NCBI GenBank assembly: GCA_003194525.1
Contig: NBIV01000004.1
Coordinates: forward strand, 620,001 to 684,000
Length of the DNA stretch: 64,000 nt
DNA from: Gracilariopsis chorda
Taxonomy: Eukaryota; Rhodophyta; Florideophyceae; Gracilariales; Gracilariaceae
Direction: 5' to 3'
This document shows, in pieces, positions 3,001-64,000 of the stretch. The translations under genes and the position numbers were made by a program. The notes beneath the pieces were generated by a model. The model saw only the letters and a list, made by a program, of their open reading frames with translations. It did no database searches and was not told the DNA's origin. The number at the start of each line of letters is the position of its first letter. Position 1 is the first letter of the stretch.

Positions 3001-3390
3001 ATGGGCAACTCATACGGTTCAACCGGAATTTGTTAGCTTCTCTTCGTTCTCATGTTGCTAACCACAAAAACCTGGAACTTGTATACAGATGTGTTACCAT
3101 TTTCATACTATATGCGCTTTCAACGGAATACCGGAATATCACCGTTCACCCCCGCCGTGGCGTTGAAATTCCACGCTACCTTCGATAAGTTTCCATTTGT
3201 GGGTCGCTGCCATCAAGAATGGAAGCAATGGCCGAGCAAGCTGATCCCGGCAGCGTGGAGGTCAAGAAAATGCGCAGAAGCTGCGTTCAAGCGGGATTTT
3301 GACGCTTACCTACTAGGTAAGGCTCTTCGCATGCAGGGTAGTATCTACGTGCCGTCGCTGTGGACTCCTCTCCAATGGCTTCAGTTCCCG
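1..3390 (+). mobile_element. Broken chromovirus (Ty3/gypsy) pol, copy 1
   Basis: The pol order is readable on the plus strand. The end of a protease-like domain is at about 20-170 (KLDFIVC, shared with the copy at 59-64 kb). Reverse transcriptase lies at about 958-1500 (WRFCVDY, then LVYLDGIIISS). RNase H remnants follow at about 1700-2130 and integrase at about 2600-3330 (FSDNGKQF; a CNGQLIRFNRN stretch matching the NGQVERFN signature). The residues place it in the same family as the chromovirus at the right edge of the window. It is broken in many places (a dozen or more) and has no visible LTRs; the left end runs off the window. It is clearly older than the right-hand copy. The right limit near 3390 is set by the switch to an unrelated plus-strand ORF. 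Confidence 0.9.
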
Positions 3391-5110
3391 CCAGCAGCGC
3401 GTACGCCGATCCTGGGGAGAGATCTGACCATACCTTGGGGCGCAATTCGATGGCCGTAAGGACTACCCATTTTCCTAGTTCCGTCGAGGAATTTGTCCGC
3501 TTCAAGGACCAATACTTGGACGCCCGTAGATTCACGGCAATTCCGAATTTTGTCCGTGAAAAGAAGAACGCGCGAGACATCTCTTGGTACAACCGTTGGC
3601 TCCATCTCCCGGCGGACGTCTGAGCGGTGGCGCATTGCCGTGCTTTGGTCCGCCCGGACATGACGTACGTCCGATGCGACGAAGAAGACGACTACTAATG
3701 GAGGCTCAACCAGCTCCTCGCGGACCTATATCTCTTACATGGTGACCCCCGGTCTTCGGTCCCACCTGGTGACCACGTCCTCTTGGGGCTGATGTACTAG
3801 AAGCCGCCTTATGATCAGCTGTACTGGATTACTAACAGGTTTAATTGAAATGACATGATCGAACCCGACGGCTGTATCCGGAAGAATTTGAACTACTTCT
3901 TCTGCTGGCATCACGACGAATTCCACGACACGCCGCCGTCCCGTAGGGCCAACGTCTATCTTCCGATGCCTTTGGTCGCTGCGAGCCCGGAGGCGTCCAT
4001 TTGGCATGTATCTAATATCCTCATGGCCCGTACTCCGTCCATTGTGGCTTTCCACACCATTCAACTCCAGGGCGATTTCCGTCAGCGGCTCTCTTGGTTT
4101 TACAGGCAGGCCTTCTTTGCATAATAGGAGGTATTCTGCCTCATGGCCATTTTGGATACTGGTCGTAACGGCGTGCATGCGAATTTCCGTGAGGCTGTCC
4201 ATCGTATTTGAAATGAAAAAATCATTCCGAGTCCTGAGGGCAGATTGGTGCCCCTGATTCCCCGCCTCTTTGCGTTCATTCGCGAGCTAGGGGTGCAGAA
4301 CATAGTCCGAGGGACCGTGTGTAGCGCATAGCACACGGAGGAACTTTTAGATTATGTCCTGCAGGTGGATTGGGCGAACACCCCTGGATACTTGTGGTAC
4401 GACTACGACACAGGCGAGTTCTGGCCGATTCCGGAGCATCTTTTGGATCGTGAAGATGGCAAAGCCTACGAGACAAAGCCTTTAATGGATACCCCAGTCG
4501 ACGTACTGCGTCGGACCATCCCAGACTAATATTTGCAGGCTATTCGGTTTGATGCCGCTCGCCTGCGACCTCCTTCCAACCGTGCCTGTCCCTGCTTCTT
4601 CTTGGGTGCCACCTTAAGAGGAACCGGTGGTCGGCCATCCCGAGACGTCCATTGGTCCAACAGCTACCGTTACTAGTCCCGTCGGGTCGTTACCAGTCAC
4701 TGTCACTGCCCTTTCGGTCGTTGCGCCAGCACCGCCTCCGCCGCCTGTGATACCTATGGCCGTAACTCGGGCCTATGAGGAGCTTGTCAGGGGTTGCCGT
4801 TCGGCAGGCGTAACCGACCCCATTGGGGTTGTCATGAGGGACGCTGCATGCAGCGCAGTTGTGGGTCGGTAGGGCGTCGCGGTACGAGTCCCTGGTGAAG
4901 AGAAACCAAGAGGTCAAGGAGGCATTGGTGACCATTCTGGAGGAGAACACTAAGGGTCTTTCAACTCCCATGGCGGCCGACTTGGATAACCGACTCGATC
5001 TGAACCTGACGGACACAGAACATTCTCTGGCTCACTCGTCCGCGTCAGCCCATAGCCCAGCTTGCAAGCGCGCGTGCGTCGGTTCTTCTGCTCGTCATAT
5101 GGCCTAACTG
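3390..5110 (+). pseudogene. Worn antisense-type ORF of chromovirus copy 2
   Basis: This plus-strand stretch keeps weak but ordered likeness to the large ORF at 56886-58787. An 'LWYDYDTGEFWPIPEHLL' block (about 4390-4450) matches 'LLWEVYDKNRLWYIPPHL'. An earlier block at 3460-3620 and a Pro/Val/Ala-rich tail at 4627-4860 also lie in the same order. Like that ORF, it points toward a chromovirus pol on the opposite strand, whose chromodomain end is at 5945. I therefore read it as the extra antisense ORF of chromovirus copy 2. Its start is missing, apparently lost at the junction with copy 1 near 3390, and it is broken several times. The protein family is not recognised. Its homology to the 57-kb ORF is my by-eye inference. 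Confidence 0.55.
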
Positions 5111-5944: not shown

Positions 5945-8900
5945 TTTTGGTTCAATAGGGATTAATAAAACTCGCCGGGATATTTTCAGGCGGTATCCAC
6001 TGGTCGTCCTCCGGGCCATAGCCATACCAGCGGAATTTGTAGAGCACCTCACGTTTTTCGTCAAGGCCAGCGGAGACGATGCGGTCTACTACATACTAGC
6101 GGCGGTCCTCCTCTGGTAAATACATGTCCTCGAAGGCTCCATAGCCGTCGTCCGATGAGACGGTTTTACGGCCGCCGAGGTCGTCGGCAACAGCACCCTG
6201 TGGACCCGCTTTATTGACCTGAGGACCAAGAGGGTCGGCAATAACGGCGCGTGTACCCGGCGGTGCCGCCGAGGTCGTCGGTCCAGATGGTAATGGCAGC
6301 CTTGAGAGGGGCGCGTCGACCAGTGAAGTGCTTGATGAGCGCGGGGCGGGAGGTGGCGGCCTCAGAACGCGTGGGGATGTGCGCGCAACGGCCTGTGGTA
6401 CGCTCGAACTTCGGGTAGGGTGGTGCGTTGGGCCGACCGACGGGCGAGGCGCCATGGACACGTGGTCCGTCGACACAATATCTTGAAAGCCGTCTCGGCC
6501 CATCGTAACCATATGGTCAGTGGACTTGATTACCCTATATGGTCCAGTGGAACGAGGTACCAGCTTAAACGCAGTGTCCTCCGCCTCGTGTTTTTCCTTG
6601 GGGGGCCGGTCCAAATGGACATAATTCCCTGGAAAAAATGGGGCACAAACCATATGGCCTTATGAAAGTCCGCTTTGTAGGGCTTCTGCGCTTTGTAAAA
6701 ATGGGTCTGGGCGGCCTTCAGGATAGAATCGAAAACGAATTACATTTCGCGAATTCGTTTTGGCCTGAGCTGGCGTCATTTCCACAGTAACGTCCTGAGG
6801 GATGCCTGTATCCTGTAAGTCGAACATGTAGGGTGGAGGCGCCCGGAACAGGGTAAGGTCAAAGTGTGCCGTACCCGTGGACCGATGGACGTGATTACTG
6901 TAGGCATAGACCAAAGGTTGGACGTAATCGTCCCAGTCCAACTGGTGCTCAACCACATAGTGGCCTAACCTAGAGGCCAGCATCCTATTAAAACGCTCAG
7001 CTTGTCTATTGGTTTGCAGGTGGTAGGCGGTGGTCAAGAGGTGTTTTAGACCTAAGGCCGAGCACACATGTTCGAAAAACTTGGAGACAAATTGTGGGCC
7101 ATTTTCGGTCAACAGATATAAAGGCAGACTATAGGGCTATATCCAGTGGACCAGAAACGCCATGGCAACATCAGTTGCCGTGGTGGACCGTAGCGAAATA
7201 GCACGCGTCATCTTGGAAAACCTGTCGGTAATAACCAAAATGAAGGAGTGCCCATGGGTCGATTTAGGGAACGGTCCTAGGATGTCCATAGCAACGAATT
7301 CCAAAGGTCCTGCCGCAGGGAATAACTTAAGCGTCCCCTGTTGCAGCGCTCTTGTCCCCCGAGTTTTAGCGCATGCTGCGCATCTCCGCGTGGTCTCCAA
7401 TATATCGTTGGCCATGAGGGGCCAGTAGAAGTATCTCCTTAAGGTCTAATACATTGTCGTCCAGACAACCGAGAGTAATGAGTCAGGTATAGAAGAAGCC
7501 TGGCCTGAAGGGCCTTTGGAACAACGCGCTGTATTGCCCCATCAAGTGGAGAGCGGCGTCACAATATTCCGTGACGGTCATAATCAAACAAAGACCTATG
7601 GGTCCTGACGGCATTAGCGCACTGGACACACGGTTCATCACCCTTCTGGGCCGCGAGGAATTCTTCGGGGGATATGGGGGTGAGGTCTCCTGTTTCTGCT
7701 TCGGCCACGTGGACTTCCAAGGATGGGTCCTCCCAGTCAATAGTGCATAACATGACCTTAGGTTCTTCTTCATTCCCTTGGCTAGTGGTAACTTCTCCTA
7801 CCAGGTAAACCATTTCTGGATCATCGTCCACATCCTGTGGACCTTACCATATGGTGTGAATCTCATCGTCCAATGGAGTTTGATCCGTGCCATCGGTCAG
7901 GATACAAGATAATGCATCGGCAGCTTGTTGCTTTAAGCCAGGCCTATAGGTAATTTCGTAATCAAATTCGGCCAACCGGAGTCTCCAGCGGGCCAAACGG
8001 GATGAAGCATCAGTCTTATTCAAAAGCCATCGGAGGTCATTGTGATCTGTTCTAATGGTACGCCGAGTACCCTCCAAGTAAGGCTGCAGGTGTAAAACTG
8101 ACCCGACAATGGCCAAGCATTCTCGTTCGGACGTGCTGCAGTCCTTTTCGGCCTTCGTTAACGAACGGCTCCAGTATTCAATCGGTCGACAGTCCTTTGG
8201 AGAATCCTGCTCTTGGGTCAGTACGCATCCAACCTGGGTTGCCGAGGCATGCGTATCGAGGATGTACGGTTTGTTTGCCCTAGGCAAGGCCAAAATTGGG
8301 GGGTTTACCAAATGGTCTTTCAGGCTCTGGTAGGCTTCGAAATGCTCGTCCGTTAGGTCATCAAACTCCAAAGTGGTCCCTTTCTTGAGCATTTCGTTCA
8401 GCAGAGACGCAATATTCGCGAACCCAGGGACAAACCTTCGGTACACATTGCATAGACTTAAAAAGGATCGCAGTTCCGTGTAGGTCCTTGGAGGTTTCGC
8501 ATCCCTAATGGCCTTTGTAGTAGTTATTGCCACCTGGAGCATACCAGATAAGACCACATGGCCAAGATAGTCCACAGAGGGCTGGAAAAAGAAGCATTTC
8601 CTCAGCTTTAGAGTGACACCGGCCTGCTGGAGTAACCTTAGGACAGCCTTCACATGAGTGAAGTGTTCACCAACAGACCTCGAAAAGATGATTATGACAT
8701 CCAAGTAGACCAGAACAAACTTCCATTTGACCCTGGATAGTATGATATCCATTACCTGCAGGAAGGTTGCCGGTGCGTTAATCACTTCGAAGGGCATCCG
8801 GGTGAATCAGAGCAGTCTCTCGTTGGTCGTAAAAGGTAGTCAAGACCTTAGCCTTGTTGTCCATTGGTACTTGCCAGTAGCTGCAATTTGCGTTCAATGT

Positions 8901-10485
8901 GGTAAAAACTTGCGCCTCCCCAGGGAATCAAGACAGTCATCCATCCTCGGAATATCATAAGTGTCTCGTTTGGTTACTGCATAGAGCTTACGGTAATCAA
9001 TGGAAAACCATATGGTACCATCTTTTTCTTGGCCAAAAGGGCAAAAGGGCCTGCCCATTCGGCTTCATTGGGGGGGGAAAGTTCAATTACTCCGGCGGTC
9101 TGCATCTTCTCCATCTCTTTCGCCACTATTTCTCTTCCTTTCAGGTCTGTCCTATAAAGGTGCTGGTACTGCGGTGTGGCTCCATCCTTGACGTCGATTC
9201 AAAGTTTCGTTGCATCTTTCTGTCCCAGTTTGCCACTCCACATTTCGGTAGAGTCCTTAAGGAAGTCAATGAACTGTTTCCTATAGGGCTCAAAATCCTC
9301 AGCGAGGTTAACTTCGTTCTCCCCATGGCCCACTGGTTCGCTACTCGACGGCAGCTTTCCGAGCTGAACCTCCATGATGGACACTGGGGCCGATAAGGTA
9401 ATGCCAACTACCGTACCTTTGGGCAGCCTGGTGGGTTTATCGCGGAAATTGCTCATCGTAACCACGAATGGCCTATTGGGTACAACATTCATCACTCCAT
9501 TGGCTACTAACGATAAATGCTTCGTGACCAGCTTGGGGTGATTCTGCAAAGAAAAAAGACCTGAGAACTAGCGCATTGCAGCGGCCGCCACTTGGGTCAT
9601 CGGCGGTATTACTATCGCCTTGGCCGAGCGTATCTTCTTGGACACCGTCCACTAGGTGAACCTCGGCCTTGAGGGGGTGGCTTCGGGTCCGGGGCATGCT
9701 CCAACAATGGGCAATGGAGTTCCTCGATAGAATGCAACTTTCCTTTGGCCAAGATAGATAGCTCTTACATACCTATCAATACAACTCGCCCCTAGGATAC
9801 CCCCTCCCCCCAGGGTTCGGATATACAAGATACCACGTCCTGACCTTCAGATGACCCAATTGGATGTAAAGCGGGATGACCCCGCGGATATCCTTTGGTC
9901 GGCGTGACGCGTCCGTCACCCTTGGCGAGTTCCTTTCATGCACCATCCTCTCCCAGCTCAACGGTAAGATCTTAGGATGTACCAGGTTTGGACCTGCACC
10001 CGTGTTCAACAAGGCGGTGAAAGTCCGCATGGTGTTCGTTTGCAGTCGAAGGGTTCTGTTTACTTTATAATTCTCCTTCCGTACGACACATACTGCATCC
10101 TCAAGGTCTTTCCACTGTTATACGGCGTACACCTGACTGGATTCTTGATACTTTCCCTCCTTTGGTTCTAACTTCTTCTTCTGCTCTCCGGTCTTCCGAT
10201 CCGGTGTACTGAGGCAGTTGATTCTGGAGGAAATGCACGCCTCTATGCGTCCTTCCGGTCGTTTCCTGTGGCTACAGTGCCACGGGATGGGTCTGATGGT
10301 CAGGGTGCTGGACCGCATCGGCAGGCTTGTCCAGCATATTGACCTGAGGTTGCTGCACGGGGGTCGTAAGAGGTGTCATATACTTTGAACTCCCCGGAGT
10401 TCCTGTGATCCTCTGGCTAATTGGCCTTCCGTAATAGCCTTCCGCGCGGCGCACTCGATAGTGCTTGTCTCTATGGGCTATAAAC
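5945..10485 (-). mobile_element. Broken chromovirus (Ty3/gypsy) pol, copy 2
   Basis: Read on the minus strand, the parts are in normal gypsy order. A protease lies at about 10030-9780 (TGAGPNLVH). Reverse transcriptase and RNase H lie at about 9400-7850 (LVYLDVIIIFSRS, then FLSLCNVYRRFVPGFANI, then IRTDHNDLRWLLNK). Integrase is at about 7420-6660 (CAACAKTRG zinc-binding end, then MTENGPQFVSKFFEHV and a QTNRQAERFNRML stretch). A chromodomain lies at about 6090-5945 (FRWYGYGPEDDQWIPPENI). It is broken about ten times. No LTR is visible: the upstream side is cut at 10486 by the DIRS-like element, and the downstream side holds the antisense ORF and then copy 1. Residues differ clearly from copies 1 and 4, so it is a separate subfamily. 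Confidence 0.9.
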
Positions 10486-10486
10486 G

Positions 10487-36443: not shown

Positions 36444-36661
36444 TGAGGCGAACTACGCGAGTTGTTCGTCGATGGAAAGGTGAGGTTCGATGCCTAGATT
36501 TACTGAGAGGCGATGTTCTTGAGGCTTAAGTGCCACTACCGTGTTCCCCAATTGGGAACTGCAAGCATTTGATATGATACTTACGCTAGTGTAACCTACA
36601 AATAGGGTTTGAGTAGCCTTTTTGGGTTCCATCCAGCGCTATGCAGCCGAAAACGGCTACA
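36444..36661 (-). repeat. 3' LTR of the 36-42 kb gypsy element
   Basis: 218 bp, TG...CA, direct repeat of 42283-42499. Shared landmarks are ACTGAGAGGCGATG, TTGGGAACTGCAAGCATTTG and TTTTTGGGTTCCATCCAGCG. The polypurine tract abuts its right edge at 36662-36675 on the plus strand. Confidence 0.92.
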
Positions 36662-36851: not shown

Positions 36852-37648
36852 TCTAGTGCATTACCCGGACGCTGGAGTGCACCGAAAGACGTTCGGGACC
36901 TTTCTTCGTTAGAGATGAGCCTAGTTGGGTAGAGCCCTCCCAAGAGTGGCACGACTATGTCGAATTGTAAGGCCAAGGCCACCCGTCGCGACTTGCGCAG
37001 GGAGGTTGAGGCAAGAATCAGGTATCCGCAGGAGCGGTGTATGGGGGTGGTCGTCCTCTAGAGAGGTGAGGTTTCCAGGTTAATGGCACGCGCGAACACG
37101 AGCCGTGGGTAGCAGGAAAGCCATCCTGTAAATTGAAAAAGGAAAGGGGAGCTGATTCACGAGTGTCGTGACGAAGACTAACGGCAGTGCCGGTAACTAA
37201 ACCTTATACAGAGCGAACAGCAAGACAGCTGGAATAACAATCCGAATACTTGGTTCCTTTAGATAGGCAAGGGGTTTAGACTTCCCGTATGCGACGGTGC
37301 TTCCCTCCAAAGAGGAGTAGAGAACACGCAAAGGCGGTGAGGTCTAGAGCCGATTCCCCAGGTTGGGGTCCCTTGTTGGGGAACTTTTACTGGTGCGACT
37401 GCAACCCGCCGGCGCAATAAGTACTAACCATCCCAGAAATGGGTGTAAAAATAATAATTAGAATTAACTAAATTACTCCACTTTGGTGGTTCATGTCCAC
37501 TACTGTGGCCAACCGCCATTTGACTCTTTCGTGTCCCACGTGTCAAATCTACTACTAGTGGTCGTAGTTCCTGCAATGACTACATTACCGAAACATTCGG
37601 GAAATCAACCAAGTACCAAGGATCCCTCTCTGAGGGCATTGCACTTCA
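36852..37648 (+). repeat. Solo structured LTR (LTR C) inserted in the gypsy chromodomain region
   Basis: The 797-bp segment is homologous to LTR A (54292-55119) along its whole length. Its ends are inverted repeats (TCTAGTGCATTACCC against TGAAGTGCAATGCCC). Chromodomain-coding sequence of the host element lies on both sides of it, so it is an insertion. ATTT occurs on both flanks, but an exact 5-bp duplication is not clear. I give the strand in which it matches LTR A as the leader of the plus-strand ORF. It holds the same hairpin series. Confidence 0.85.
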
Positions 37649-40600
37649 TTTTTTACCAGTTTCATTAAACGTTTAACTGGCATTTCAGTTTCCGACGCTA
37701 TGAATTGCAAAATTATGGCCTCTCTGTCCAACGGGCTGTCGTGATAGTATTTGAGGCTACTACCATGAATGTCTTCCGTTAGGCCACTGCCTAGATCTTC
37801 CACCTTAAAGAAGTAATCTGATAGAGCTTTTTGGATGCAGTGGGGTCCGCGCCATCGCAGTGCAAGTTTCTCCCCCGCATGAAAATCGTTGCGCGCCACC
37901 AAGACATAATCACCTTTGACAACGTTTGGGAGAGTGCCTCTCGATGCCTTTTCCCTTGATGCCTTTCGGTTGTTCTGGACTGCGTTTTGTACCAGAGGAT
38001 TAAGCTGTGTGCAAGCTTCTTGTAAGGCCTTGATGTTAACGCAGCGCCTCTGGGTGACATCTGAAACTTTCATAGCCTTACGAGTGGAGGAACGGAAGAA
38101 CGAGGAGATGGGCAGAGACGGCTCCATTCCAAAAAATCGGTTACCAGTGCAAGGTTCATTCGGTGCGAAGAGGCAGAGTTGTTGAGGATGCTCTGTATCA
38201 CGGGTAGCAAATGTGTCCATTCCTTGAAATCCATTTGTAGTTCGGATGTCAATGCTCTTAAGGTTCAAATAACTTCCTTCCCTAAACGCTCCACTGCTCT
38301 GTTGCTCCACGGAGTGTATGGAAGTGTGAATTGATGCGGCACACGTAGGAATTCGCAGAGTACGCGTACAGTTTTGTTGCGGAAGTGAACAGGTCCGTCG
38401 GACATGAGACCATTTGATGTGACAAAAGCTGCGCACCAATGGACGATCGCCTGAGCTGCCTTTTCAGCAGCTGTACTTGAAAATGCATACAACCACTTGT
38501 AGTCGAAATGGTCATCGCGGACCATGAGAATGTATTTCTCGTCGTCTGTGTTCGGTCCAATCTCCAGAAATTCAAACTGGAGGAGACCATTGGGTGCCGT
38601 CCCGTGTACTGCCGGTCCAAAAGGACGTGGTACCTTCTCTCCACCGGTAGTAGAAATGCATTGAATGCAAGCGCGGATGAATGCACGGATGTCTACTGTT
38701 ACAGTGATCCATGTGAATTCTCTCCGTAGCGTTTTGTGGTTGGGATTCTGCCTCGGTTCCCGGATGGTCCAGTGTGCGCGATGATGCACAGTCGTAACTG
38801 AAGATCTTCCACATTGTCAGGGATCCATACAGCGCCGTCCTGAACTTTCCACAATCTGTCTTTCATCTTTATTCCCTCAGGACGATGTGATTTGTTCGCT
38901 GACTGCACTGCAAATATTTCTTCAGGCTTTGGCCATGAGAAATTCTCTGCGGAGCTTGATGAGAGAATAGGATATGCACCAATCAGCGAACCGTTGGAGG
39001 TGCAGCCCAGCGAGTGAGAAGATCAGCCCACACGTTGTCGGTGCCTTTGACATGGAAGCAAGTGTAGGTGTAGGCGCTAAGCCTCACTGCCCATCGCAGG
39101 ACTTTTCAAACGGACGGGAGGCTGAGATCAGGAATGATGGAGAGAGGGTCGAAAAGATTGTTATGATCGGTGTAGAGATCGAATCCAGTTGAGGTCGCTA
39201 CAAGCCAGTGCATACGTTCCAACGTAGAAAGTATGGCAAACGATTCCTTCTCCAAGACAGACCAACCCAGTTGGGTGGTGTTAAAGAAACCTGAACAGAA
39301 TGTTACAGGACTGTGCTGCTGTTCTTCTTGTATTTCGGTGAGGTCGGAGAGCGGAATTTGTGTGATGATGCCAGACCATAGGTTGTCGGGAGCATCTGTG
39401 TATATAACGAGTCTCTGATTCTCCCTCCTATGTGTGATTGTGACGCTGTGTCAAGTGCCTCTTTGCAAGCTCGAAATGCCTGGGTTTCTAGTCCGGACCA
39501 ACCGAAGGCCGCAAGATCTGCCTTTGCCACAGAAGTCTTTGTGCGCTTCCCAGCTTTCTTTTACACCATTCCCAAAAATTATTTCAATGGTATTATGGTC
39601 TTGGATAAGTTGGGTATGCTCATCTTAACCCACTGCAGTGCACACATAAATTGCTGCAGGTGGCCTCCATTGGTCGGAGGTTCCATTGCTAACAGAACAT
39701 TGCATTGTCATGGATCATACCGTACTACTGATGCGGAGATACTTCTTCCGCACCACCTGATTGAAGTTGAAAGTAGAATACACTTTTTTGGGTGGAGACA
39801 GATTGAGTGTTCCTTGCAGACCTGGAAGAGCTTCCGAATTGGTTGAAGGAGTCCTTCCACTGTTCTGTTGTATATTAGAATGTCATCAAGCTATTACACG
39901 AGTGATTGACGTAGTTCCTTCGGAAATATCTCAGCGAGGACTGATTGAAGGTGCGTTGTGGCATTGGTTGTGCCATGAAAAGCTGGCGTTGGGGAAAAAA
40001 TGCCGTCGGGTGTTATGAAAGACTGTAGCGCCTGAGAGTCTTCGTGGAGAGGGAACTGCCATTATCCGTGAGATAGATCAAAAGTCGCGAATAATTTAGA
40101 GTGTGCGAGTTTCAACAGCTCCTGCTCGATGTTTGGCATGGGAAATTGATGCTTGATGGTGAAAATGTTCACTGGACGTAGGTCGACTGTGAATCGAAAA
40201 CGAGCCGGCCCTGGTTTCGGCACAATCAAGGAGGCACTGGCCCAGGGAGATGTTGGGTTTGGGTAGGCCATTCCGGTTAGAACGAGATCCTCTACAAGGA
40301 GTTGTAGAAACTTTCGCTGCTCTTGCGAGTAGTTTCGAAGCCTGACGCGGACTGGTTTGGCTTCTGGAGATAACTCGATTTTTAGTGGTCTGATTTTTGC
40401 CGGTGGTCCTGCTGAGAGAGAGACTCTGAAGATGTCCCTGTTGTTCTCCAGAGCGCTGCGCAGTTTGGTCACCTGACCGTTGGTCATGCCAGAGTGTCGC
40501 ACGTTCTCCACCATTTCGTTGACAGCTGACTTGATTTTGTCAGGTTGATCGCTGTTGAGAGGGTCAAGAAGCGAGGGATCTGGGAATGGGTCCTGGAAAT

Positions 40601-42282: not shown

Positions 42283-42499
42283 TGTGGCGAACGACGCGAG
42301 TTATTCGTCGATTGAAAGGTGAGGTTCAATGCCTCGATTTACTGAGAGGCGATGTCCTGGGGCTTAAATGCCACTACTGTGTTCCTCAATTGGGAACTGC
42401 AAGCATTTGATAATATACGTACGCTAGTGTAACCTACAACTAGTGTTTAAGTATCCTTTTTGGGTTCCATCCAGCGCTATGCAGCCGGAAACCGCTACA
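42283..42499 (-). repeat. 5' LTR of the 36-42 kb gypsy element
   Basis: 217 bp, TG...CA, direct repeat of 36444-36661 with about 20 differences. It is followed at 42500-42504 by ATTCG, the likely right target duplication. Confidence 0.92.
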
Positions 42500-54291: not shown

Positions 54292-55119
54292 TGTGGTGCA
54301 ATGCCCCAAAGGGGAAAAACACCGAAAGACGTTCGGGATCTTCCTCTCACGAGGTGAACGCAGTTGGGTAGAGCCCTCCCAGAGGTGTCACGGCGAAGCC
54401 GGTTTGTAAGATCAGGGACACCTGTCGCGACTTGCGCAGGGAGGTGAAGGCGAAGAATCGGTATCCGCGTGAGCGGGGTGTGATCCTCAGTAGAGGCATG
54501 TTTCCACGTAAGTGGGGATGTGTGAGCGGATGCGCACACGAGGGCCGCCGATAGCGGGAGGAGCTACCCTAAAAAGGGCGAAAAAGGAAGGGCGAAGAGG
54601 ACGAAGAGAGGACGAAGTGAGTCGCGAGAGCGACGAACGGATACGGCAATGCCGGTGGACAGGACTCCCTATACAGGGTGAAACACCAATATGATTGGAA
54701 CAATTATACTCCCAAGGATGGGCTTCTTTAGATGTGCAAGGGGGTTAGATGTCCCGTGGTTTACGGCGTTTCCCTCCAAGGAGGAGTACAGCACGCACGC
54801 AAGCGGCAACAACTAGAGCCGATTCCCCAGGTTGGGGTCCCTTGTTTGGGAAGGTTTACTGGTGCGACGGCAGTGCGCCGTCGCACTAAGTACTAGCTTC
54901 CCAGAAATGGGTGTGAAAATAATAAATAATATTAACTAAAATGCTCCACATTTCGTGGCAACATCCACTACTGTGGCCAAGCGTCAATTGACCCAAAACC
55001 GTGTCCCACGTATCCATACCCACCATTGTGGGGCGTAGTTCATATAAACACTACACAACCGATAATATCGGGAAAACGATCAAGTACCAAGAATCCCTCC
55101 TTGAGGGCGTTGCACTTCA
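54292..55119 (+). repeat. Structured LTR A (leader of the short antisense ORF)
   Basis: The 828-bp segment runs from TGTGGTGCAATGCCCC to GGGCGTTGCACTTCA: TG...CA ends with a ~15-bp imperfect inverted repeat. It is homologous along its length to LTR C (36852-37648) and, more weakly, to LTR B (55982-56895). It inserts into the piggyBac remnant. Hairpins in order include CCCC-AAA-GGGG, CCGAA-AGACG-TTCGG, CGGC-GAA-GCCG (54391-54401) and CCCA-GAAA-TGGG (54900-54911). CCGAT-AAT-ATCGG (55059-55071) and CCCTC-CTT-GAGGG follow. I place the strand by the ORF that follows; as part of a chromovirus its sense strand would be minus. Confidence 0.8.
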
Positions 55120-55174
55120 TATCCGACCGTAAGACGGGAAAACGACCGCGGAAGCTGAGGATTCCCAGACGAAA

Positions 55175-55705
55175 ATGTGTTATAAAAGTGCGTGCTCGGT
55201 CTCCGGTTCTCCGGTAAATCCCTCTGCACCAGAGTCATCGGGCGCACAAACAACAACAACAGCCACCCACCAAAAGGGAAAAATGAACAACGACAACAAC
55301 ATCAACAACCACAGCCAACCTCCGAGGCCTCTCGGGCGATACACCACCGGTTTCCGTTCAGTTCCCCTGCCTCAGGGCGATCGACATCCGGTACAACCGG
55401 GGAGTATGGCTGCTGCAGCCGACCATCCCTTCGCACTACAACCTTCGGTGGGGTCCTCTGGAACCGCTCCGGCGTTCAACTGGCCAACCTACAACACCCT
55501 GGTGGGGCTTAACCCGATGAATCGGAATCACGTGTCGTGCCTGCGCCTTGCCCCGTGGTTTCACCCGGTCGCTGTCCTCAATGAGGGATTAGTCACCGCT
55601 TATGCGGATGGCTCAGACACCCTTCCCGCGGATGTCACCGCCATGGCGGACGCGTTGGCTTACCGCCTTGCCGGTGGTCAAGCCCCGGGCGACGGCGAAG
55701 AGTGA
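55175..55705 (+). CDS. Short antisense ORF of a chromovirus, unknown family (aORF A)
   Basis: ATG at 55175, 56 bp past the LTR A end, 176 codons, no break. The N-terminus is Thr/Asn/Gln-rich (HQKGKMNNDNNINNHSQ). The core is FRSVPLPQGD ... LRLAPWFHPVAVLNEGLVTAYADG ... LPADVTAMADAL. It is homologous to residues ~85-200 of the long ORF at 56886-58787, sharing PLP.G, N-P, APWFHP and LP.D..-M.D. It thus equals the N-terminal module of that protein. No known fold is recognised, nor a signal peptide or metal site. After the stop come two identical-type hairpins (CCGTC-TYG-GACGG at 55799-55811 and 55832-55844), also seen in kind after the long ORF. It may be naturally short or a cut remnant; the trailing hairpins favour the former. 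Confidence 0.6.
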   Translation: MCYKSACSVSGSPVNPSAPESSGAQTTTTATHQKGKMNNDNNINNHSQPPRPLGRYTTGFRSVPLPQGDRHPVQPGSMAAAADHPFALQPSVGSSGTAPAFNWPTYNTLVGLNPMNRNHVSCLRLAPWFHPVAVLNEGLVTAYADGSDTLPADVTAMADALAYRLAGGQAPGDGEE

Positions 55706-55981
55706 GCCCCTTTTGTCCAGTTTCCTGGTGTTCCTTCCCTGGCTATGCCAGTTAGTGTAGTGTAGTATGGAGCTTGCTGCTCCGCTAGGTAAACTTTCCC
55801 GTCTCGGACGGTGATTTCCAATTAGAATTCCCCGTCTTGGACGGACTTTCCCTTGCTATCCTTTCTTACTGCCCTCCGCTCGCGCGGCAACGTTACCCGA
55901 CTTTGGCATTAACCAGCGTGGCTGGAGCTGCAGTTCCCGTTTGACGGTGGTATCGCACGACCTGCGATCGTGGGAGGTGTT
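55706..55981 (+). other. Spacer after aORF A with paired hairpins
   Basis: CCGTCTCGGACGG and CCGTCTTGGACGG stand 33 bp apart (55799-55811 and 55832-55844). Nothing codes here. The stretch ends where LTR B begins, so the second element seems to have inserted into the first. Confidence 0.5.
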
Positions 55982-56895
55982 TGTGGTGCAATCCCGGTGT
56001 GGGAAGGGCACCCAAGGCAGCTCGAAGCCTTGCTCTCTTGGAGAGGTAGGCCCAGCTGGGTAGAGCCCTCCGTGTCCCGTATGACGGGTGTAACTCCGTC
56101 GGGAGCCTGGATGTACCTCGGAGGTTTAGGGGTTAGAACGGGTCGGAACCACGGCTGGTCCGGAAGTAGCCTGCGAACAGTGGAACAAAAGAGGGAAAGG
56201 GACCACCTGACGGGGGCGTGCGGAAAGCGGGAACAGACCCCGGAGGGGGGGTGCCGATACACACACACGAACACGCACCGCGCGGCGGTTAGGGGATATG
56301 AGGGGAAGGGATGGTCTCACGGTCTCACGACACACGTCGGTAATATCAATACCCAAAACTGGGGCGGAGATAGGGCCTGTACGGGCGGTCACACGACAAC
56401 AACGAATACCACGAGTGGTCACAACCCACTGGGTACGACGAGCACGGTCTCCTCGGTGGTGCGAGTCGGGTGAAACTATCGGGCAAGCGGTGTACCTCCG
56501 CGAGGAGTTAGACACTTCGCATGGCGAATAGAGTCAGAGCCGAACTCTTGTTACTTTTCTTGGTGAGCTCGCCGCCGTGCGGCCGACGCTCAAGTACTAG
56601 CTCAGTGCAGTACAGTAGGTAGTGCACTAGCCTAAGTAAAATTAACCCCTAAACTATACTAAAATAAGTAGCCGTTTTGGGCCTCCTGGCCGGGGCTGTA
56701 GCCACGTGTCCACCACCCTTGCCAGGCAAGTACCACAAAATATGAATGTTCCCATAACCACCCTGGGTAACCCGACCGCTAATTAGCCCGGTAAACGGGG
56801 GCTAAAATTCATGCATCCCGCTTCATCGCTCGCACCGAGTACACCTCAGATATGAGTTTCACCATCGCCCGTACGCGGGAATGTATTGCACTACA
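55982..56895 (+). repeat. Structured LTR B (3' LTR of chromovirus copy 4)
   Basis: The 914-bp segment runs from TGTGGTGCAATCCC to GTATTGCACTACA, TG...CA with inverted ends. On the minus strand a purine tract (AAGGAGGGGGATG, plus-strand 56896-56908) stands directly against it, as a polypurine tract does against a 3' LTR. This makes it the 3' LTR of the minus-strand chromovirus to the right. It shares GGGTAGAGCCCTCC with LTRs A and C, and the hairpin that follows (CCCGT-ATG-ACGGG at 56076-56088). The partner LTR lies beyond the window. Confidence 0.75.
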
Positions 56896-56945
56896 CATCC
56901 CCCTCCTTAAGGGCCGAAAACGAACGTGAGTATAAACGTGAGGAG

Positions 56946-58787
56946 ATGAGGCGCGAGGGTATAAATAGTCCCGACAAGGGAATCGCCGAGATACCGGTCC
57001 CCCGTACCAACACGGTTACAACTGATCAACCCTCAGAACCTTCTTCAACAGACTCTGCGCCCCTCTCTACTATGACCAACACTCCGTTTTCGAACAACCC
57101 GCCTGCGGGCGCCCCGCAGGGGACTTCCGCGAGCGGACAACCTTCCTTCGCGACGCCGGGGTCGTGGGTTCGTCACCCATCCTCTGGGTTCCTCTCCTTG
57201 CCTCTGCCTGGAGGATCGTCTCATGTTCCAACCTTGGATGCCTCGGATGCCGCGAGTATCGCCGCCTGGAATTCCGCTCAAGCGATACCGATCACTGCGA
57301 CCGCCGCCGGCTGGGTGTCACCATCGACACTTTGGGCCCGCAATCCCCGGGAAGACGCTCTCCTCTTTTCGCGTGCGCCCTGGTTCCACCCCACATGGGT
57401 TTCCGACTCGGACCTCATCGACTCCTATGTGGAGGAGGGCGAGCTCCCAGGGGGACTAGGCCGGGATATGGTCGACTCCTTCGACTGGAGGACGCGTATC
57501 GCGGTAGAGCCACAGTTCCTCGCACGGAAGCGCACCAGATATGGTTTCGAGACGCTGAATGAAGCCCGTGCCGGGATGGCCAAGGTCGCCTACGACCGTC
57601 TCGCCCGCGCGAGTTATCCGGATGAGCTGGTACCAACGGAATACAGCTTTGACCTCTCGCGGTACCGTACCTACGGTGAAGTCTCATACTGCGAGAACCT
57701 TGCTGCCTACCAGCCATCTACACCGTTCCGGTCCACTCCAATAGAAGCCGGGATGCTCCTCTGGAGGCGCCCAATTCTGCGTGCAGAGTTCCGATATCTT
57801 CGTCGTCCGAATCATCGCGGATCCTTCTTCGACCGACTCCGGTTTGAGCGAAAGGCGCGCTCCCGCTTCGGGTTCCTGGTACCATACCAAAATCTCGAGG
57901 TCGAGAGGCTCCGTCCATCCGCGATGCGCGGCCGGTATGCACCTCTTCCCCATTGGTGGAGCAGGTTCGAAGTCCCGAGGGGATGCTTTGCGGAGATGCC
58001 TCCGTGCCTCAGCTACATCGGTTCACGATTAATCAACAATCCGGATTCCGGTTACTGGACTCTCTTCCTCGCCGAATGGGCTGCTCGCGTTGCCGCATTT
58101 CTCCTCTGGGAGGTGTACGACAAGAACCGTCTGTGGTACATTCCTCCTCACCTACGCCAGGTTATCCGCCGATTGGATCTCTATATCCCTCTGGGATCCG
58201 AAGCCAATGTGGATGAGCTTCAGTGCCTTCTGAACACCATCGATATGGTTAACTGGGATACAGTCCCAGTCTCCAACGTCCCTGACGGTGAGCCTTCCAG
58301 GCATGATCGCTCTCCAGGCCGGAGAAATCCAAACGCTGGCAACTTCGTCTTCTATGACCCTTGGGAGGTATCCGTGACTTCACGGGCTCACGCGCTAGCG
58401 TTACGCGATGTACCACGCTCCGTTCCGCGAGGCCACCCGGTTGGGTTCATGTTTTCCGATGACTGGCACGGTTCCTACGAGGATGATCCAATGGTGGATG
58501 ACGACCCCGATGAGGTGGAGGAGGCCGTAGCCCCGGTAACGGCGATGGTCGACGATCTCGACGGATCCGGCCAGCATGTGGCTGCTCCAGATGGCTGGAA
58601 TATGGCCGCCAGTGTGGCTGCGTCTCCGTCTACCGCATCTCCGGTCCCCGTGGACCCTCAGGCCGTTGCCCTCAGGGCTCACCTCCAGTCCATTGGAGTG
58701 GTTGCGCCTTCCAACCTCACCAGCGTGAGCGAGTTATTGGCTTTCGCGTCTGCGAACTACCAACCGCCAACGAGCGGCTCATCCTAA
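56946..58787 (+). CDS. Long antisense ORF of chromovirus copy 4, unknown family (aORF B)
   Basis: The frame is open from 56886; the first ATG is at 56946 (613 codons), 51 bp past LTR B, and another ATG lies at 57072. It looks whole. The N-terminal ~85 residues are Ser/Thr/Pro-rich. A module at about 90-200 has FLSLPLPGG, ARNPREDALLF and SRAPWFHPTWV. The middle (about 220-480) is Arg/Tyr/Trp-rich: RAEFRYLRRPNHRGSFFDR, PLPHWWSRFEVPRG, LWYIPPHLRQVIRRLDLYIP. An acidic segment (EDDPMVDDDPDEVEEA, about 535) comes before an Ala/Pro tail. I recognise no enzyme motif; it is not gag, envelope or any pol domain I know. A nucleic-acid-binding role would fit the basic aromatic middle, but that is a guess. 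It converges on the pol genes (chromodomain end at 59124). Confidence 0.7.
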   Translation: MRREGINSPDKGIAEIPVPRTNTVTTDQPSEPSSTDSAPLSTMTNTPFSNNPPAGAPQGTSASGQPSFATPGSWVRHPSSGFLSLPLPGGSSHVPTLDASDAASIAAWNSAQAIPITATAAGWVSPSTLWARNPREDALLFSRAPWFHPTWVSDSDLIDSYVEEGELPGGLGRDMVDSFDWRTRIAVEPQFLARKRTRYGFETLNEARAGMAKVAYDRLARASYPDELVPTEYSFDLSRYRTYGEVSYCENLAAYQPSTPFRSTPIEAGMLLWRRPILRAEFRYLRRPNHRGSFFDRLRFERKARSRFGFLVPYQNLEVERLRPSAMRGRYAPLPHWWSRFEVPRGCFAEMPPCLSYIGSRLINNPDSGYWTLFLAEWAARVAAFLLWEVYDKNRLWYIPPHLRQVIRRLDLYIPLGSEANVDELQCLLNTIDMVNWDTVPVSNVPDGEPSRHDRSPGRRNPNAGNFVFYDPWEVSVTSRAHALALRDVPRSVPRGHPVGFMFSDDWHGSYEDDPMVDDDPDEVEEAVAPVTAMVDDLDGSGQHVAAPDGWNMAASVAASPSTASPVPVDPQAVALRAHLQSIGVVAPSNLTSVSELLAFASANYQPPTSGSS

Positions 58788-59123: not shown

Positions 59124-62100
59124 CTACCCAACCTGGGCCATGTCCAAAGTGGATGGGAGTGGGAACCGCGTCCGGCGGTGGTAGGTTATCACCTTGGAAC
59201 GAGGAAGGTGCTGAATGGGCTCCCATGTGTCCTCTTCCGGGGGGTATCCGTACCATCGGATTTGGTAAAACCACACTCCTTTGGAGTCCAGAACATGATC
59301 CACGATGTGGTCAACGACAAACTCCTGGTCGTACGTAGCCGGCTCCTGACCCGTCATGGCAGGGCTTAAGGGGAGAACCCTGTGAGGGGACTTGCCTGAA
59401 ATTGGCGCGACCCTGCGGGCAAAGTCAGCTTTCCTCGACGCTGCGAGTGCTGGGACTTGATACCGCATTGCGGTCTTTCCGCTTCCTAATCCTCTCCTTG
59501 TGGGGGGGGGCCTTCCGTTCTAACCGGATTCCCCTATTGACGCGCAGCTCGCGAGCTCTTCTCCCACGCGACCCGTGCAACTCTGGTGAGTTTGACCTTT
59601 CACGGTGAGGGAGGCGGTTCACTACGGTTCCGACGCCAGGAGGCGGATTGCCATGCATCACACACTGTGATTGGCTGGCCGCTGGCGGCAAGTGTCGCGC
59701 GCGGTCTTTCCACGACGCGGGTCTTGACTGTACTCCTGACGCCGGCCGGCGGTATGTACGTGTACACCTTTCCACGGTTTGGAATTTCGGGCTTCGTCCG
59801 CGTGACAGTGGCGTCACAGTGTCCATTTGTAGGGCTCTGCGGTAACGCACGCAGTGTCAACCACACTCTCCGTGTCCGCGGTTGCTTTTCAGCTCACCAC
59901 GAAACTGGTTATGAACGAGGTTGTATGTGCTCCGTGCTCGGAGATATCATTCGCCACATTAGTGACCACACCGAGTCCGGTTCACCACTTCCTCCTTCGC
60001 TACCCAGCGACTCGCTCGACAGGAGTGCATCCGGGTCCGCGGAGACGGCCTTCTCGCTTCGAGATGCGTTCAACTCCTCCCTGCTCTGGGGGTGCTCATC
60101 CGACGATGCCGTATGAAACGGGACACCGTCCGACGCCGGAGCTTCCTTCCGCGATGGCGCGATCGATTCCCGTTCCTCCCCCTCCTTAGGTGAGAGGGCG
60201 GTGGGTTCAGGATGAAGGACCTCCGCGGGCGGAGTAACGGTTAGGCGTTTGGGGTCAAGCGTGCGTTGCACGATACGCGCGGCGCGCCCAACCGGTTGAT
60301 CGGCAATTGGAAGATCCGAGAGTCCCCGTTTCGGGTGCGGTAAGACGGGTGGGCGGGACGGAAGCAGATTATCCGTTGGCCGAGTTACGAGGTCATCCTC
60401 CGGGATTGTCACGAGCGGTGATGAGCCCTCAGGGGGCGCAGGCGCGTGGGCTACGCGGTCGCGTGAGACGCGTTCGAACTGGTTATCGATGTCCAGTACG
60501 ACTGTGTCGTCGGCGACGGAAACCACCCGATAGGGTCCATTCACTATCGGTGACAACTTGTGGCGCTTCTCCTTTTCGGGATTATAATATTCCTTTCGCA
60601 GGAAGACAGAATCCCCTTCCGAGACCTGGGGTATCGGGGAACGAATCTTCGCGTCGAAGTTCTGTTTGTATGCCTCCTGGGCTTTTCCCATAGCCTTTCG
60701 GGCGGTAGGGACCATGTTCTTCAACCATTCCTTCCAGGAATCTCGATATAACCTTGGTGAAGGGTACCCCGAGACGTTCGGTTGCGCTTCAATAGCCATG
60801 GGTGGTGGAATCCGAGACAGGACCAGCTCAAATGGAGCGAGGGTCGTGACCCGGTGTACCTGGGTGTTATACGCGTACGTAATAGCGTCCGTGTACAAGT
60901 CCCATTCCATGGGGTGATCCGCGACATACGCGCGCAGTGCGTTGAGCATAGTACGATTGAATCGTTCCACTTGTCCGTTACACTGCGGGTGGTAGGTGGT
61001 AGTAAACATATTCTTGATTCCCAAGATTCTACATACGTCCTGAAAGAACTTTGAGGTGAAATTGAGATCCGTTGTCGGAGAGTAGGTGTACCGGCGGGCC
61101 GTAAGTAAAGACCCAGTGGGTTACGAACGCACGCGCAACCACGTCCGCGGTAATCCGTTTAAGCGGTACTGTTCTCACCAACTTTGAGAAGCGGTCAGTA
61201 ATGACGAGAAGATACTTGTAACCACGTTTGGTTTTGACAAGCTCGCCCAAGATATCAATAGCGACATATTCGAGTGGCGCCCGTGCCGGGAATAGTGTTA
61301 ACTTCTTCGAGTACTTCCGAAGTTTCACATTATTCTTCGCACATTCCACGCACGAGCGGCGAACTGCAAAGCAGTCAAATGCCATAGCAGGCCAATAGAA
61401 GTCCCTGCGAAGGGTCAGGTATAGTTTCCTCCCGCCGGGATGTGCACCCAACTTCGCGTAATGCGATAGATGCAAGACGCGCTGCTGCAGCGTGTGAGGT
61501 ACAACGATCTGTGGGGCCCGTGTCAGCAACCTGACTAGGTAGCCTCGATCGTTCACCGCAAAGGGTATCTGTGCGCCCCCGTTAAGACGGGCACGAATCT
61601 GGGCACAGAAAGGATCCTGCTGTTGTTCACGGATCATTTCCTCAGGGGATATGGGAACAACCTGGTCATCCGGAGGATCCGTAGGGTTTGCAGCCAGAAT
61701 ATCGTCACAGATGTCATCCCCATTCACGTCTGGGTCGTCTTCTTCCGTTCCCTCCGGGGATTGTGCCATGAAACATGGTATTTCCAGATCGTCGACCGGT
61801 TCGGTTTCCGCTGATGTTCCTAAGCGCGATAGGGCGTCAGCCTGAGTATTCAGGGATCCCTTCTTGTAGAGGACATCAAATGTAAATTCCGAGAGTCGGA
61901 GACGCCAACGCATGAGGCGGCCCGACGGTTCTCGAATTTCGAGTAGCCAACGGAGAGCCGAGTGATCGGTGTGAACCTTGAAATGGTTACCCATAAGGTA
62001 TGGGCGAAGCGTTGCCAACGCCCAAACAACAGCAAGACACTCCTTCTCGGACACCGAGTAGTTGCGCTCGTGAACGTTCAACGAACGTGACCAATATCCG

Positions 62101-64000
62101 ATCGGATGTCTTTCTCCTTCTTCCGTGACTTGAAACAACGCACAACCCACCTGGTGGGCACTTGAGTCAGTATCCACTTCGAAGGGTAAGTCCGGGTGCG
62201 GTAAGGCCAGAACTGGCGGGGACGTTACAGCGTCGACAAGAGACGAGAATGCTGACGACTCAGCCTCGTCAAAGACGTCCAGTTCGGTGGGTTGTCCTTT
62301 CCGGAGGAGTGCGTTAAGCGGTGCTGACAAGTCGGCGAAGTTCGGGACGAATCGGCGATATACATTGCAAAGTCCTAGGAAGGATCGAAGCTCCGTTTGA
62401 TTAGTCGGATGTTTCGCCTCTCGAAGTGATTTCACTCTTGCTTCATCGATTGAAAGCTGTCCGGGGCGGATGATGTGCCCCAGATATTTTACCGAATCGG
62501 CGCAGAACTCACACTTTCCCAGCTTCAGGGTGATGCCTGCGTTGCGGAGCACTGTCAAGACTTCCCGGACATGGGACAGGTGATCGTCCAAGTTATTGGA
62601 GAACACTATAATGTCGTCCAAGTATACCAGACAGCTGGTCCATTTGAACCTCGCCAAGAGGATATCGATTGCCCGTTGGAATGTAGCTGGGGCATTCGTT
62701 AGTCCAAACGGCATTCGCTTAAAGCGATATAGTCCTTGATGGCACACAAACGCGGTCTTATCACGATCTTCTTTCCTAATAGGGACCTGCCAGTATCCCG
62801 AATTGGCATCGAGGGTAGTGAACACCGTTGCGCTCCCCAGGGAGTCAATGTACTCGTCCATTCGTGGAATCGGATAGACGTCCTTGACAGTAACCGCATT
62901 CAGGCGGCGGTAATCCACACAGAAACGCCATGATCCATCGGCTTTCGGAACAAGGACAACAGGAGAAGCCCAAGGGGATTGTGCTGCTTCGATAACTCCA
63001 GCTCGCAGCATCTTCTCCACCTGAGATTTCTCTTCCCCCCTTGCTTTAGGGCCTGCCCGATACGGGTGCTGTGCAATAGGCCGTGTATCCGGCAACAAAT
63101 CAATCCGATGTTCGGTTACCCCTATCGTCCCCAGGGAACCGTCCCACATGGCGGTAAAGTCCCTGAGCATGTCACGAAACTTCTCACGATGAGATTCATT
63201 AATGTGATCCAGGTCCAACTTATCCAAAGCCTGTTCTGGGTCTAACGCAGTATCTGCCGATGCTGAAGTCGTGCTCTTCTGAGCTTCTTCGACAGTCGAA
63301 TCTGAACTTTCCCGGGCGGAATCCAACGGAACGAACGGGACCTCCTCCCCCTCCTTAGGGTCTTGTATTCCGAGAACGTCGGATATCGGAATCTTTGTAG
63401 GAAGGATAGCCAACGGATGCGGAAGCATGTTGCCCAGGACCTGGTTTTTAACCAACCACTGAGTGGTAGTTCCGAGGTTAGCAACGAGAACCTTAAAGGG
63501 TTTGTCCGGCTCGACGGATACGATCCCATTTGCTAATGCGAGACGGCGCTGTTCGTAGAGCGAGGGGAGCGGTTGAACAACCTGCAACCCGTGGTGTTTG
63601 GATGTTACTGAGACCCACACCTGAGATTCCTTCGGGATCGAAACTGGTTCCGCGACGCGAATCTTCGTAGATGCTCGATCCACATTGGACGCTTCCTGAG
63701 CAGCAGGTAAAGGTACCCGTTTACGGGAGGCGTGTCGCAAGGGCTTCCGTACAATCGGGATGGTCGAACCGTTGGCCAATTCCACGGATCTGGAGCGAGG
63801 GCGGATAGCTTCCACGAAGCGGTCACAGAAATCACAACCGAGGATGACCGGTGCAGCAAGAGAATCGCATACGATGAAGTCCAACTTCACCACGTAGGTG
63901 CCTAGTCTGAGTACCAGAGGAATTGTTCCAAGAGTCTGGAGCGGGTTGTTATTAGCGTCCGCCAGATCCAGACTTGGACCAATGCGAATGCATTTCCGCA
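59124..64000 (-). mobile_element. Chromovirus (Ty3/gypsy) pol, copy 4, nearly whole
   Basis: Read on the minus strand from the window edge. A pepsin-like protease region (DLADANNNPLQTLGTIPLVL, VKLDFIVCDSLAAPVILGCD) is followed by RT at about 63070-62400 (WRFCVDYRRLN, LVYLDDIIVFSNN with the YLDD site). RNase H is at about 62100-61800 (VHTDHSALRWLLE) and the integrase zinc end at about 61370 (CVECAKNN). The integrase core is at about 61290-60900 (AIDILGE, LLSDNGSQF, HPQCNGQVERFNRTM). A GPY/F module is at about 60600 (KLSPIVNGPYRVVSV), and a chromodomain at 59400-59250 (YQIRWYGYPPEEDTWEPI). Only about one or two breaks, so it is young. About 0.44 kb that does not read as protein separates the integrase tail from the chromodomain. 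Gag and the 5' LTR lie beyond 64000. Confidence 0.93.

Follow-up and report, generated by a model that had tools for sequence, protein, structure and literature searches.

What is a long open reading frame (ORF) doing when it starts beside a long terminal repeat (LTR) and faces a retrotransposon pol gene on the other strand? The question is raised by a stretch of 64,000 nucleotides of the red alga Gracilariopsis chorda (contig NBIV01000004.1, positions 620,001 to 684,000; hereafter the window), in which such an antisense ORF (aORF) accompanies a chromovirus. The initial annotation had proposed a chromovirus lineage with an antisense gene between pol and the 3' LTR, and had taken conservation between copies as a sign of selection. 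Both proposals hold in view of the position of the ORF, the LTR pairs, the pol and aORF trees, the substitution ratios and a census of copies, and we are highly confident that the element carries the aORF as an antisense gene under selection. As the best explanation overall, we consider it probable that the chromoviruses of red algae encode the ORF as an accessory gene of their own, which would be translated from an antisense RNA and might act in trans as a regulator or counter-silencer.

The frame is open on the plus strand from 56856 to 58787, which amounts to 643 codons from stop to stop. It has the 633 codons first reported when counted from the TTG at 56886 and 613 amino acids (aa) when counted from the first ATG at 56946, which indeed lies 50 bp past the LTR edge. 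Opening by chance is excluded because the other five frames of this stretch carry 14 to 22 stops apiece and because the genome (91.3 Mb, 1081 contigs) has long matches of 90-100% identity to the full aORF in at least 70 places (73 rows listed, three of which are separate N-terminal pieces). Among the matches listed, the aORF frame is without a stop in 53 of the 70 places, and pol occurs in at least 48 places, 33 of them without a stop.

The aORF is enclosed by a complete minus-strand chromovirus of 11,450 bp. Its LTRs of 914 and 913 bp are 99.7% identical over 915 columns, both end in TGTGG...CTACA, and the outer flanks share GTGTT, a 5-bp target duplication. The LTR pair and the shared flanks show that a single complete element encloses the aORF, which lies on the opposite strand, with the chromodomain on one side and the 3' LTR on the other. 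The element reads gag, pol, chromodomain, antisense gene, polypurine tract (PPT) and 3' LTR (Table 1), and a CT-rich stretch comparable to the PPT follows the LTR in five other LTR-bounded loci. Pfam matches run in the Gypsy-type order reverse transcriptase (RT), RNase H and integrase, the last of which carries the chromodomain at its C-terminus; the assignment to the chromoviruses rests on this domain content and order, as the RT/pol tree comprises copies from this genome alone.

The same arrangement recurs across the genome. Twenty diverged ORF loci were chosen from searches with the homologues P0003 and P0008, and in 19 of them the aORF lies antisense to, and directly behind, chromodomain and pol. 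In all five loci tested for LTRs, pairs of 95.8-99.7% identity with matching 5-bp flanks are present, the nearer of the two LTRs stopping shortly before the ORF begins. By our own count on the pol/aORF tree, the gene occupies the same place in the same orientation in eleven diverged element groups. For the window family, a census was made with a 200-aa RT piece as a probe; of the 150 matches listed, 93 are copies with an identity of at least 95%. A listed ORF is found 4.6-5.1 kb away on the opposite strand in 66 of the 93 copies, and on the same strand in none. The remaining 27 comprise 24 that lie too near the start (15 copies) or the end (9 copies) of a contig for assessment, two with the gene present but carrying indels (99.5% along 403 bases in C113, 98.0% along 561 bases in C457), and one (C124) in which the place of the gene is taken by DNA of the L037 lineage described below. 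The gene is present in 68 of 69 assessable window-family copies, the last being the place filled by another element. Starting from the ORF, 57 of the best 87 window-family rows have an RT on the opposite strand among the matches listed (contig ends unchecked). Similarly, 35 of 57 RT rows at 81-85% identity pair with an ORF among the matches listed, all on the opposite strand.

Such recurrence could also be that of a passenger, either a host gene picked up by the element or another mobile element nested in it, by now fixed in the lineage and open for no other reason than the youth of its copies. Many window-family copies are indeed less than 1% different, and two young pairs are without sign of selection; against this stand the shared position and orientation in the eleven tree groups and the matching trees. 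Distances of pol and aORF are correlated over 18 loci (Mantel r 0.75, with 0 of 2000 permutations as high). The maximum-likelihood trees of the two, built from 17 loci, coincide at every supported fork, and the aORF tree resolves one fork that the pol tree does not. A homologue in a second chromovirus clade and low substitution ratios on deep branches speak against a passenger as well, as does the failure to recognise any relative located elsewhere than in such elements (for the database homologues, the surrounding sequence could not be read). We regard a passenger as extremely improbable and the aORF as a gene that has descended with its element.

The aORF is under purifying selection at the protein level. 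The ratio of nonsynonymous to synonymous substitutions (dN/dS), which the initial annotation had suggested computing between copies, is 0.12-0.18 (NG86) in the five deep pairs with estimable dS and 0.09-0.21 in further saturated pairs, all rough values with dS saturated in deep pairs; it is near 1 in two young pairs only. For pol, measurable in two of the five deep pairs, it is 0.08 and 0.09, the aORF values being 1.5 to 2 times as high in the two pairs measurable for both. The eight nearest window copies differ at 0-6 positions per pair, which is too few for an estimate of selection. Differences at codon positions 1/2/3 range from 0.30/0.23/0.57 to 0.48/0.40/0.66 over ten pairs. This pattern agrees with dN/dS without needing a saturation correction and implies that third positions are not constrained by the opposite strand. 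Judged by dN/dS, codon positions and trees, the aORF protein is conserved to a degree comparable with other proteins of the element. The codon pattern also bears on the notion that the antisense RNA itself matters, and not the protein, by pairing with the genomic RNA and tuning silencing. The convergent layout would yield double-stranded RNA over around 2 kb, and the possibility is named for plant elements in a review (PMC7264820). However, selection acts on amino acids, with third positions near saturation and the protein kept, and a frame of more than 600 codons stays open in the 53 of 70 listed places mentioned above, which makes a role of the RNA in place of the protein very unlikely in our judgment.

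Relatives of the gene extend to a second pol clade, which was sampled by one copy each of lineages at around 72% (C241, L037) and 62% (C144, L038) RT identity and is represented in the window by a worn pol (7089-9816, minus strand). In L038, the chromodomain is followed by an open antisense frame of 774 aa, which the family profile matches at E 2e-18. Aligned with the window family by hhalign, this frame scores a probability of 98.0% (E 1.6e-13), compared to at most 0.31% for five shuffles. The plus-strand pieces of the decayed gene facing the worn pol (Table 1), missed by the first aORF family profile, match the 774-aa gene at E 8e-9 to 2e-13. A third, worn relative of the ORF (3390-5110) opposite a chromovirus pol had been suspected beforehand, and it is recovered here through the second-clade gene, with pol and chromodomain at 9816-5955 on the minus strand. 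On the evidence of this homologue, the gene would predate the divergence of the two clades, provided that it was not transferred between them.

The predicted protein is acidic (68 kDa, isoelectric point 5.4) and has a mainly helical conserved core of some 370 residues (approximately residues 140-505) with poorly conserved flanking ends. Ten homologues with 25-56% identity occur in other database records, including one from G. chorda and one from Agarophyton chilense; P0003, deposited as BWQ96_10156 of Gracilariopsis chorda, has a 99% match on contig C355. The window aORF matches no Pfam family with an E value of 1 or less, and the same holds for P0001, P0003, P0006, P0008 and the L038 ORF with a limit of 5, while P0010 and the L037 tail give just below-cut-off matches to other families. 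The TRP28 (Transposase_28) domain was not found in the antisense proteins searched against Pfam. PDB sequences gave no match at E 10, and the predicted structure gave no meaningful fold match, with none in BFVD at E 0.001 and a weak model. Within the Pfam, PDB and fold searches made, the aORF is a protein family without recognised relatives, in keeping with the first impression that it resembles no known protein. Instead of a regulator, it might be a structural or particle-related protein (envelope-like, nucleocapsid-like or a movement factor), for which the strand alone would be unusual. That the aORF evolves faster than pol along the same tree would suit such a protein, and its retention in 68 of 69 assessable window-family copies is what a structural accessory might show. 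Against it, the searches returned no Pfam family above cut-off, no PDB sequence and no meaningful fold (no search aimed at transmembrane segments was made), the protein has just 4 cysteines in 613 residues, too few to make several zinc knuckles in a row likely, and an antisense message would be produced separately from the gag-pol message. We consider a structural role unlikely.

Expression of an antisense accessory gene would require an antisense RNA, from which the aORF protein would be translated and whose start may be within the 3' LTR or, with a promoter there, a short way into the element. In the window, L013, L016, L020 and L023, 35-55 bp separate the LTR edge from the first in-frame ATG; the distance is around 150 bp in L030, in which the frame is broken. 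Given how close to the LTR the ORF begins, an antisense RNA originating in the 3' LTR would have LTR sequence as its leader. By its position, the LTR is a candidate promoter or leader of the aORF, the alternative being a TATA-like site just inside the element (Table 1). The motif TATAWAW is present in 3 of 20 loci with a PPT-like anchor (21 examined), where 0.5 would be expected; TATA-type sites occur in L018 (at 59 bases) and L021 (at 39 bases). In the deposited model BWQ96_10156, two antisense-ORF frames are joined across an 88-bp GT-AG stretch (L012 2152-2545, ORF on the plus strand), a modelled intron that falls within the 5' part of the gene in its own family.

Antisense genes of LTR elements are known from other hosts. 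Retand, a Gypsy lineage of flowering plants, resembles the red-algal elements in having an antisense gene (TRP28) with a proposed regulatory role (PMC11963269). Retand is a non-chromovirus whose POL-3'LTR region spans 2.9-6.6 kb and frequently contains tandem repeats, and its antisense protein has a TRP28 domain, whereas the red-algal elements have a chromodomain and an antisense protein without a Pfam match above cut-off. The aORF fills most of their chromodomain-LTR space. In PMC7264820, Grande gene23 of maize and RIRE2 of rice are likewise described with an antisense gene behind pol that is conserved in the family. For the Grande gene, antisense transcription and a nuclear location of the protein are described; unlike the situation considered here, an upstream promoter of its own is reported for it (PMC7264820). 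The likeness to gene23 is one of layout. As for non-plant elements, Boty of Botrytis cinerea has the antisense gene brtn between pol and 3' LTR (PMC7264820). Its host is a fungus, and brtn is likened by layout, not by sequence. Going by its title, Zhao et al. 2011, which is cited in PMC8365987, deals with the same element. HBZ of human T-cell leukemia virus type 1 (HTLV-1) is read inward from a 3' LTR promoter and has a similar layout (PMC11963269, PMC7264820), although it is retroviral and again likened by layout and not by sequence. With regard to retroviral antisense proteins of the HBZ/APH type, the evidence gathered is that PDB sequences gave no match at E 10 and that BFVD gave none at E 0.001 with the weak model. 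Our findings extend antisense accessory genes to red algae and to chromodomain elements, with a protein lacking a TRP28 match, and this combination of host, chromodomain and missing TRP28 suggests that such genes were invented more than once in this position. No established function of such genes was found in the sections consulted of PMC7264820, PMC11963269 and PMC8365987, and in those of the first two their role is an open question.

Several observations weigh against a selected gene with a regulatory function. By analogy with the antisense proteins of Grande, Retand and HTLV, for which such roles have been suggested, the aORF protein might act in trans as a regulatory or counter-silencing factor; this choice, the likeliest among the roles considered, comes from analogy alone and is tentative. 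The predicted model is weak, within the core too (mean pLDDT 58.8), and a simple motif scan found no nuclear-signal pattern in the protein. One of the 20 diverged loci, L024 at a contig end, has no antisense pol beside the ORF. Among the matches listed, 30 of the best 87 window-family ORF rows are without a partner RT, and 22 of the 57 RT rows at 81-85% identity are without an ORF, 2 of them near a contig start; resting on the matches listed, these 22 rows show neither absence nor presence of the ORF. Besides the saturation of the deep pairs, the young pairs have dN/dS values of 0.26 to 1.27, with L013/L015 and L029/L030 near 1, as expected because copies decay after insertion. The first ATG is farther in, or missing, in several loci anchored on the PPT-like stretch alone. 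Finally, the one L037 copy examined (C241) keeps pol, chromodomain and a 478-bp LTR pair (99.4%), and its antisense frame is just a 192-aa tail (1270-1848, minus strand). This frame begins at a distance of 22 bp from the LTR and is similar to the final part of the worn copy in the window (39% over 76 aa, E 7e-10). There are 20 RT rows of this kind at 72-73% identity among the matches listed, with the pol frame open over at least 1,300 codons, and judging from that copy the lineage seems to have multiplied without the aORF core. As L037 retains pol and LTRs with the tail alone, the core is not indispensable in cis. The initial annotation had singled out copies with pol and LTR and without the ORF as telling against its proposal: the window family does not supply them, whereas L037 in the second clade comes down to the tail.

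Selection on the antisense gene being well supported, these elements offer a compact test system, with dozens of near-identical recent copies, eleven diverged groups, a lineage seemingly without the core and a single protein family. They also matter for annotation, as one such gene (BWQ96_10156) has been deposited as a hypothetical host protein. A more far-reaching reading, which we find rather doubtful, is that of an ancient antisense protein family, lacking recognised relatives, that has been present in two deep red-algal chromovirus clades since before their split and counters host control. If true, it would add another independent origin of an antisense accessory gene next to the 3' LTR to those in plants, fungi and retroviruses, and the position itself, as a second, LTR-linked expression unit, would be the selected trait. 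The tail-only L037 lineage could then parasitise the intact one or have some other escape from control.

Table 1. Positions of the chromovirus, its antisense gene and related features in the window.
Feature	Position	Strand	Basis or remark
3' LTR, 914 bp, TGTGG...CTACA	55982..56895	-	Partner LTR C4:686519-687431, beyond the window
Polypurine tract, CCCCCTCCT on +	56896..56910	-	Between LTR and aORF ATG, adjoining the LTR
Antisense accessory gene (aORF), 613 aa	56946..58787	+	Length counted from first ATG; open frame 56856-58787
TATAAATA, putative core promoter of the aORF	56960..56967	+	Weak; next in-frame ATG 57072
Chromodomain frame, end of pol	59124..59519	-	PF00385, E 5.9e-11
Integrase C-terminal frame of pol	59909..61120	-	PF13683 (sub-threshold match); linked by tblastn
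pol: reverse transcriptase, RNase H, integrase N-terminal part	61029..63893	-	PF00078, PF17917, PF17921, PF00665
LTR-like stretch of older chromovirus of a different family (L027 type)	54292..55119	-	Comparison with L027
Shortened antisense-gene relative in older element	55133..55705	+	Family profile E 2.7e-18
Half of older element's chromodomain, split by younger element	55896..55981	-	Comparison with L027
Decayed antisense gene, second clade	3342..5107	+	Pieces 3342-3620, 3849-4121, 4332-4526; tail 4838-5107
Chromovirus pol and chromodomain (5955-6095), facing decayed gene	5955..9816	-	Sequence match

The two consecutive modules of LTR and plus-strand ORF noticed at the outset are real, the first consisting of an LTR-like stretch and a shortened relative of the gene. 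They follow each other in the same orientation because of nesting, as the younger 11.45-kb element inserted into the chromodomain of an older one. The left flank (54292-55981) matches L027 (C137) at 91% and 84% identity and belongs to a different family from the 11.45-kb element; just outside the 5' LTR, the right flank continues the same older element with the other half of its chromodomain. The LTR-like stretch is found again beside other elements, and the shortened gene misses around 1.25 kb compared to L027, its nearest relative among the loci compared. A further relative of the older LTR-like stretch is located at 36880-37649 (77-81% to 54320-55120). To the right of the 5' LTR flank, another Gypsy-like pol (L009 6312-9494, plus strand) has a best piece around 32% identical to the window pol. 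Elsewhere in the genome, C15:286527-306053 (part of it in L017) carries four antisense ORFs of one family in the same orientation at a spacing of around 6 kb (287157, 293174, 299191 and 305211), as if in a tandem array.

The rest of the window contains further repeats and two likely host genes. Inverted copies of around 2 kb (10478-12620 and 27607-29543) are 87-94% complementary and lie around 15 kb apart, and a frame in one arm (28173-29390, minus strand) has no Pfam match. Direct repeats at 36444-36661 and 42283-42499 are around 90% identical, and their spacing of 5.84 kb would fit a short-repeat LTR element. The likely host genes encode a subtilase (20556-21761, minus strand; PF00082, E 2e-26) and a C2H2 zinc-finger protein (33177-34508, minus strand; E 2e-16).

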